A DNA stretch of 55,657 bases from Natronomonas salinimetallica. GTDB taxonomy: Archaea > Halobacteriota > Halobacteria > Halobacteriales > Haloarculaceae. The notes under the pieces were generated by a model, which was not told the origin of the DNA, made no database searches, and worked only from the letters and a program-made list of their open reading frames with translations. Each line of letters begins with the position of its first letter. Within the stretch, counting starts at the first letter, position 1. The position numbers were made by a program, and so were the translations under genes. The stretch is from contig NZ_JACDNQ010000019.1 in assembly GCF_013839515.1 (NCBI RefSeq), positions 1 through 55,657 on the forward strand, written 5' to 3'. Positions 34,538 to 34,993 of the stretch are shown piece by piece.

Positions 34538-34611
34538 GGGCCGATAGCTCAGTCCGGCAGAGCGTCTGGCTTTTAACCAGACGGTCGGGGGTTCGAATCC
34601 CCCTCGGCCCG
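34538..34611 (+). tRNA. tRNA-Lys, anticodon TTT
   Basis: A 74-base cloverleaf is readable. Acceptor GGGCCGA pairs with TCGGCCC, with discriminator G at 34611. The D-arm region contains AGCTCAG. The anticodon stem TCTGG/CCAGA encloses loop CTTTTAA, giving anticodon TTT. The T-arm is GGGGG/CCCCC around TTCGAAT. The CCA end is not encoded. No intron is seen. It is the only complete tRNA in the window, and its 3' end is copied twice downstream. Confidence 0.95.
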
Positions 34612-34993
34612 CTTTTGCGACGAACGGACGTGCGGAGCAAGGCGGCCCGGATTCGAATCCCGGAAGACGCAGCGCGAACGGAGCGAGCACGTCTTCCTCC
34701 GGTTCGAATCCCCCTCGGCCCGTGTCCGTTCGGAGCATACCGCCGAGCACCCTGTGTGCTCGGCCCTACCGCGACGAACGACGCGGTGCGGGAATCGAAC
34801 CCTGGACGTCGCGCACAGCGGAGCGAGCACGTCTTCCTCCGGTTCGAATCCCCCCCGGCCCGTGTCCGTTCGGAGCATACCGCCGAGCACCCTGTGTGCT
34901 CGGCCCTACCGCGACGAACGACGCGGTGCGGGATACCGCCGGAGGCGGGGAAGACAAACACAATTTAAGGTACCGCCGCCCCCGACGTTCCCT
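34612..34993. repeat. Array of tRNA-Lys 3'-end copies (att-like scars)
   Basis: A 115-base unit occurs at 34679-34793 and again at 34819-34933 with one mismatch (140-base period). Each copy contains the tRNA-Lys T-arm and acceptor 3' half (GGTTCGAATCCCCCTCGGCC in the first; one C for T in the second) and a strong 8-bp hairpin (CCGAGCAC/GTGCTCGG). Extra T-arm-like pieces in inverted orientation precede each copy (at about 34649 and 34788). No integrase gene is present. The most likely reading is repeated integration and excision at the tRNA gene. Confidence 0.8.

Follow-up and report, generated by a model that had tools for sequence, protein, structure and literature searches.

The nearest known case to the DNA described here is the tyrT locus of Escherichia coli with its 178-bp repeats and the rtT (rttR) RNA, a tyrT-derived RNA for which a functional claim exists. 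The tyrT array is one locus in one bacterial group, and to our knowledge it was the only tRNA-end repeat array known so far. We analysed a stretch of 55,657 nucleotides (nt) from the draft genome of the haloarchaeon Natronomonas salinimetallica, which contains N gaps (NZ_JACDNQ010000019.1; the whole stretch is called the window). It carries a tRNA-Lys(UUU) gene followed by an array of two hairpin cassettes, each composed of a hairpin (H1), an inverted copy of the tRNA end (I), a second hairpin (H2) and a direct copy (D). As at tyrT, the units stand in tandem 3' of the tRNA gene and each ends in a copy of the tRNA end. At tyrT of MG1655 the final 19 nt of tRNA-Tyr are present in three exact copies, and the repeats also contain GC hairpins and a 10-nt inverted copy (GGGGAAGGAT). 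The plan D-I-hairpin-D is therefore alike at both loci, but the sequences are unrelated, and no Rfam RtT match was obtained at the window locus with E-values up to 10. Unlike the tyrT repeats, the haloarchaeal units follow many isotypes, recombine as modules and have no CCA.

Two other described systems resemble the cassettes in part. The attachment (att) sites attL and attR of tRNA-targeting tyrosine integrases are likewise direct repeats of the tRNA 3' end, but the cassettes have no element between the copies, their 5' limit is constant, and they also include inverted copies and hairpins that are conserved. Repetitive extragenic palindromes and bacterial interspersed mosaic elements (REP/BIME) share the alternating inverted units, the short hairpin linkers and the variable copy number. 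In the cassettes, however, the tRNA's own end forms the alternating unit, the location is bound to tRNA genes, and no enzyme was found linked to them, though no search was aimed at a linked enzyme. In haloarchaea, 11 partial tRNAs were reported for Haloferax gibbonsii LR2-5, several of them directly adjoining a full copy (PMC7921747), and partial tRNAs or tRNA remnants are also described in Haloquadratum (PMC3119063). These are probably the same objects as the cassettes. In the available portions of both reports they are regarded as remnants, of which some are linked to integrated elements, with no mention of hairpins, inverted copies, modularity or a class-wide pattern (PMC7921747, PMC3119063). 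In the literature searched, which did not extend to most subscription journals, they were described only as 'tRNA remnants' and no hairpin cassettes were described, and the family is absent from Rfam.

The array in the window is composed as follows:

34538..34611, + strand: tRNA-Lys(UUU) gene (Rfam tRNA, 73.8 bits; ARAGORN gives 34538-34612)
34590..34611, + strand: D1, the copied block, the tRNA's own T-arm and acceptor 3' strand (tRNA positions 52-73), GGTTCGAATCCCCCTCGGCCCG
34612..34643, + strand: H1 of unit 1, short hairpin CTTTTGCGACGAACGG...GGAGCAAGG immediately 3' of the tRNA
34644..34660, + strand: I1, inverted cognate copy, acceptor remnant GGCC and GGATTCGAATCC (the latter at 34649-34660)
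34661..34700, + strand: H2 of unit 1, hairpin CGGAAGACG...CGTCTTCCTCC joined to the I1:D2 stem
34701..34722, + strand: D2, exact copy of D1
34723..34789, + strand: H1 region of unit 2, with the palindrome GCCGAGCAC..GTGCTCGGC at 34742-34764
34790..34802, + strand: I2, inverted T-arm GGGAATCGAACCC
34803..34840, + strand: H2 of unit 2, holding the class-wide module GTCGCGCACAGCGGAGCGAGCACGTC (34808-34833)
34841..34862, + strand: D3, copy of D1 with one mismatch
34863..34933, + strand: third trailer, the H1 region of unit 2 again, without I, H2 and D; end of the array

The first-pass annotation of this DNA had already reported that the tRNA-Lys 3' end recurs twice, that a 115-base unit is repeated and that inverted T-arm pieces alternate with the direct copies, and each of these observations was confirmed. 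The 115-nt unit at 34679-34793 is repeated at 34819-34933 with 99% identity and a spacing of 140. The H1 module type of unit 1 was also found 3' of tRNA-Lys(CUU), Gln and Met in the same genome. Folding of the locus gave a z-score of -5.6, and an Rfam search of it returned only the tRNA above threshold.

The tRNA neighbourhoods of this genome were then fetched, and the own 3' 22-mer of each tRNA was sought up to 700 nt downstream, allowing up to 3 mismatches. It was present in 10 of 41 distinct tRNA loci. Upstream it was found at one locus only, a tRNA-Ala that is duplicated across an N gap. The 22-mer of another tRNA was found downstream in 1 of 759 swaps, and shuffled 650-nt stretches gave no match even with up to 6 mismatches, which excludes chance for the tRNA-end copies. 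Arrays were observed at both tRNA-Lys genes, at the intron-bearing tRNA-Met(CAU) with three extra copies, and at Gly, Phe, Val, Asp, Glu and Leu. At tRNA-Gln, three further units have D copies that retain the T-arm and not the acceptor end, and degenerate related units lie 3' of Arg(CCU) and Leu(UAG). A variant unit is also present at tRNA-Arg(GCG) (L094, contig C3), whose repeated and inverted part is the acceptor end CCGTCAGGACG alone and lacks the T-loop.

When the locus was compared with 60 relatives by blastn, the matches fell on tRNA-downstream positions at many other loci. For a wider survey, with one genome per species, we used the pattern GGATTYGA-(22..52)-GGTTCRAATCC, which describes an inverted T-loop followed by a direct one, and the reversed pattern as a control. 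The pattern was found in 365 of 391 Halobacteria genomes and in 81 of 86 genera, the control in none. Outside Halobacteria it occurred in 5 of 313 genomes of the phylum, four times resembling the interior of tRNA-Ser. A scan of 84,980 species for a duplicated tRNA-Lys end 68-98 nt apart, which favours exact copies, gave 50 matches, and 50/50 were in Halobacteria, ranging from Haloarcula and Halorientalis to Halorubrum, Halobellus, Halogeometricum and Halobacterium. Thirty loci fetched by the hairpin pattern alone were nearly all located shortly 3' of a tRNA on the same strand, with about a dozen isotypes represented. The array in the window is not a local oddity but a two-unit case of a family of tRNA-end hairpin cassettes that extends across Halobacteria. 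The first-pass annotation had not seen that the same architecture stands behind many tRNAs of this genome and throughout the class.

The units follow the order D-H1-I-H2-D with a median start-to-start distance of 115 nt. The copied block is sharply limited in 102 units, and the boundary statistics were taken from 53 units that had not been chosen by an exact pattern. Over D positions 1-22 (tRNA 52-73) the identity to the tRNA was 91-100%; outside D the mean was about 0.3 just before the block, and 0.53, 0.38 and then about 0.3 after it. D starts at G52 and ends at the tRNA 3' end, and these limits are equal for all tRNA types. It matches the adjacent tRNA and shares the variant that this tRNA has in a given species, such as GGTTCAACTCCC in two relatives. 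The inverted copy is cognate as well, since the complementarity of I was 11.1 to its own D, 8.7 to the D of other tRNAs and 6.3 for shuffled spacers (p about 1e-17).

Simple tandem slippage of the tRNA end and its trailer, and nothing more, would be the plainest account of such arrays. Some units are indeed near-identical in tandem, as the two in the window and the four units at locus L321. However, the trailer was also repeated in only 3 of the 53 units, so that in 50 the tRNA end was repeated without it, the units of one array often differ and the modules are common to different tRNAs. Slippage alone is very improbable; it is refuted as a general account and is valid for local expansion.

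One H2 module, GTCGCGCGCAGCGAAGCGAGCACGTC, is free of tRNA sequence. A search of 40 relatives gave 43 matches to it with up to 3 mismatches, and the reversed control gave zero. When 30 of these loci were fetched, 29 were 40-402 nt 3' of a tRNA on the same strand, covering 11 isotypes, and the remaining one was at a probable tRNA-Tyr remnant. In the basal stem that flanks the H2 core, pairs 2-4 were paired in 87, 73 and 75% of 52 distinct sequences, compared to 61, 39 and 41% in a shuffled-partner control, and A-T, G-C and C-G pairs were observed at the covarying positions. The core was present in 45 of 53 Halobacteria genomes and in 0 of 242 others of the phylum. At 8 of 9 additional loci, variants of the 24-mer ending CACGT were located 3' of a tRNA; the ninth locus is cut short and is itself an I-H2-D unit. 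The variant ending CACGA was at one locus, 3' of tRNA-Gly.

A near-invariant stretch of about 42 nt, GAGGTYGTGGCTGCGCGCGCAGCGAAGCGAGCACGGAGCGGAGG, also contains the H2 core, without a tRNA, in ten genomes of at least four families and mostly on small contigs. It borders a conserved segment in 9 of the 10, and in the one locus that was read (L405) this segment encodes an OB-fold-like protein. The left flanks of these loci differ, and at L403 nothing else is common.

Copy number and module content were followed at tRNA-Lys(UUU) in 29 Halorubrum genomes, where D is identical throughout. Close extra copies (up to 3 mismatches) numbered 0 in 14 genomes, 1 in 8, 2 in 4, 3 in 2 and 4 in 1. The H1 types, which start with CTGTACCGCC, TACACCGAACC, TTTTCCTGCG, TACTCCTCGC or TACAACGAGACG, and the H2 types were freely re-assorted when sorted by eye, and the junctions were always at I and D. 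The cassette arrays also have a polarity. Among those with at least 2 extra copies, with the exact-pattern set left out, 20 had a last copy that was worse than their first, 3 had a better one and in 10 the two were equal (p=0.0005).

Our favoured reading, to which we give an about even chance, is that recombination at tRNA T-arms joins modular hairpin cassettes, which are gained next to the tRNA and remain cognate through exchange with its gene. It is based on observed features, namely the boundaries and the cognacy, the constant strand and side, the re-assortment of modules, the variation in copy number and the polarity, and on the stem covariation in one H2 module. The H1-I-H2-D cassette of about 115 nt sits exactly at the 3' end of the tRNA gene. 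D and I contain short T-arm sequences that may serve as joints for short-homology recombination or template switching, and joining at the T-arms would shuffle H1 and H2. New units would arise beside the tRNA, where exchange with the tRNA gene would keep the proximal D identical while the distal copies drift. The proximal copies would be identical because unequal exchange places a D copy in the functional tRNA. The hairpins may in addition work for the host as a transcribed tRNA trailer, or they may just persist as neutral or selfish repeats. Several points weigh against this. Neither a recombination event nor a junction-forming enzyme or a circular intermediate was observed. The conservation of the apical sequence across families goes beyond neutral repeat dynamics and points to selection or transfer, and the cognacy could reflect selection at the RNA level instead. 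In addition, the 24-mer variant ending CACGG was found at 10 of 10 loci in a different, non-tRNA element that looks mostly plasmid-borne, so the hairpin core is not wholly restricted to tRNAs. The tRNA linkage applies to the whole unit and not to every look-alike of its core.

The first-pass annotation had offered an att-site scar array or a structured element with captured tRNA 3' ends. The latter is close to the data. For scars, elements with a tyrosine recombinase would have integrated repeatedly at the tRNA 3' end, and loss of the interiors would have left the att copies. Archaeal integrases do prefer tRNA 3' ends, with att sites that vary in their 5' limit (PMC8371274), and the distal copies look older. 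At tRNA-Glu(CUC) of this genome (contig C14, 14.9-20.0 kb; L087/L146), a 4.9-kb integrated element with a frame-broken integrase has at both ends the tRNA 3' half followed by a complete hairpin unit, its repeat running from the anticodon loop onward and not over the 22-nt D alone. This shows that integrative elements are able to carry units, and they are a possible route of unit spread. No viral relatives of the broken integrase were found.

The remaining evidence speaks against scars. No integrase or element lies between the copies, as the first-pass annotation had stated for the window, and the same was found at the syntenic Lys loci, where two relatives have the same genes on both sides and 0 copies, a third has 1 copy and no island was present. 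In six Halorubrum genomes, 8-10 kb of additional DNA is inserted directly beyond the tRNA-Lys array, but no D copy was found at its far end. The first-pass annotation had named two signs against scars, arrays that never hold islands in relatives and the unit at non-tRNA loci. Islands bounded by copies were absent, but the unit lay behind tRNAs, or in one case at the probable tRNA-Tyr remnant. The limits of the copied block are constant for all isotypes, the inverted cognate copies and the class-wide hairpin modules are left unexplained, and viral contigs had no units except in host DNA beside one provirus. Because the islands are not bounded by copies, the scar array is poorly supported and we regard it as unlikely.

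A viral origin of the units was tried and rejected. The generic pattern gave mainly phage tRNA-Ser-type sequences in viral contigs, and the sole true unit there (L151) is a tRNA-Glu array in what appears to be host DNA next to a provirus. With a stricter pattern that included the GARCGNAGYGAG loop, no match was obtained in viral contigs, and a plasmid blastn gave one weak 57-nt match.

The host might also retain the D copies as decoy attachment sites that divert integrating elements from the tRNA gene. D is exact, cognate and located where integrases act, but in the single integrase element examined, the site used was the tRNA from its anticodon loop onward and not D, and the downstream Halorubrum islands do not end at D. 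We give this explanation hardly any weight.

The copies could act instead as a functional structured tRNA trailer, with H1 and the I:D/H2 hairpin co-transcribed for 3' processing, termination or as a small RNA, similar to what is claimed for rtT RNA. In a variant of this explanation, the inverted copy could invade the 3' half of the tRNA, which the D copy would then free by acting as a decoy. The units are always downstream and on the tRNA strand, and the stem covariation and the conserved apical sequence are in line with a transcribed structure. Spacer and D together were more stable than shuffles (mean z about -3.3) in equilibrium folding, which ignores modification and kinetics. In such predictions the pairing of the T-stem fell from 0.67 to 0.14 when H1-I-H2 was added and was 0.40 with D and 0.12 with a shuffled D; in the window, T-arm pairing was 0.93, 0.00 and 0.90 as I and then D2 were appended. 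However, a non-cognate D restored the T-stem equally (0.36, p=0.4) and the cognate D did not rescue the acceptor stem, so the trailer or decoy model leaves the cognacy unexplained. As the cause of cognacy the RNA decoy failed in silico, since D from another tRNA works as well, and a decoy role as such is possible in these models. A close D copy is missing in about half of the Halorubrum Lys loci and from most tRNAs here, so the unit is dispensable. Taken together, a functional trailer appears rather unlikely.

Further observations concern the surroundings of these genes. A 15-nt direct repeat (TGAGGACCCACGGCC, spacing 21) is located at 34436-34471 of the window, about 70 nt 5' of tRNA-Lys. The tRNA-Gly(CCC) that ARAGORN places at 17049-17122 looks false; it is inside a 20-nt tandem repeat ttccagtccgtgttgctcgg (16990-17080, - strand) and is missing from the Rfam tRNA list of the genome. 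The regions of tRNA-Ala(GGC) (L065, contig C7) and tRNA-Gly(CCC) (L097, contig C12) are doubled across N runs and are probably scaffolding artefacts. At tRNA-Gln(CUG) (L088, contig C23), the last 10 nt and 15 nt of trailer form 25-bp tandem copies, and a short tandem repeat lies 3' of tRNA-His (L092).

Beyond the favoured recombination of modular cassettes, we tentatively consider two bolder possibilities. The cassettes may be a class-wide system that lands at tRNA 3' ends, with oriented palindromic modules, an exact end, a cognate 22-nt tail that is restored and a dedicated putative recombination activity, or the transcribed cassettes may be a sense/antisense switch on tRNA folding. For annotation, the units call for caution because they yield spurious open reading frames and 'partial tRNAs' and may pass for proviral att sites. 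Mobile DNA lands mainly at tRNA genes. With a family present in more than 90% of Halobacteria genomes, with exact boundaries, interchangeable hairpins and a polarity, the origin and any function of such arrays become testable.
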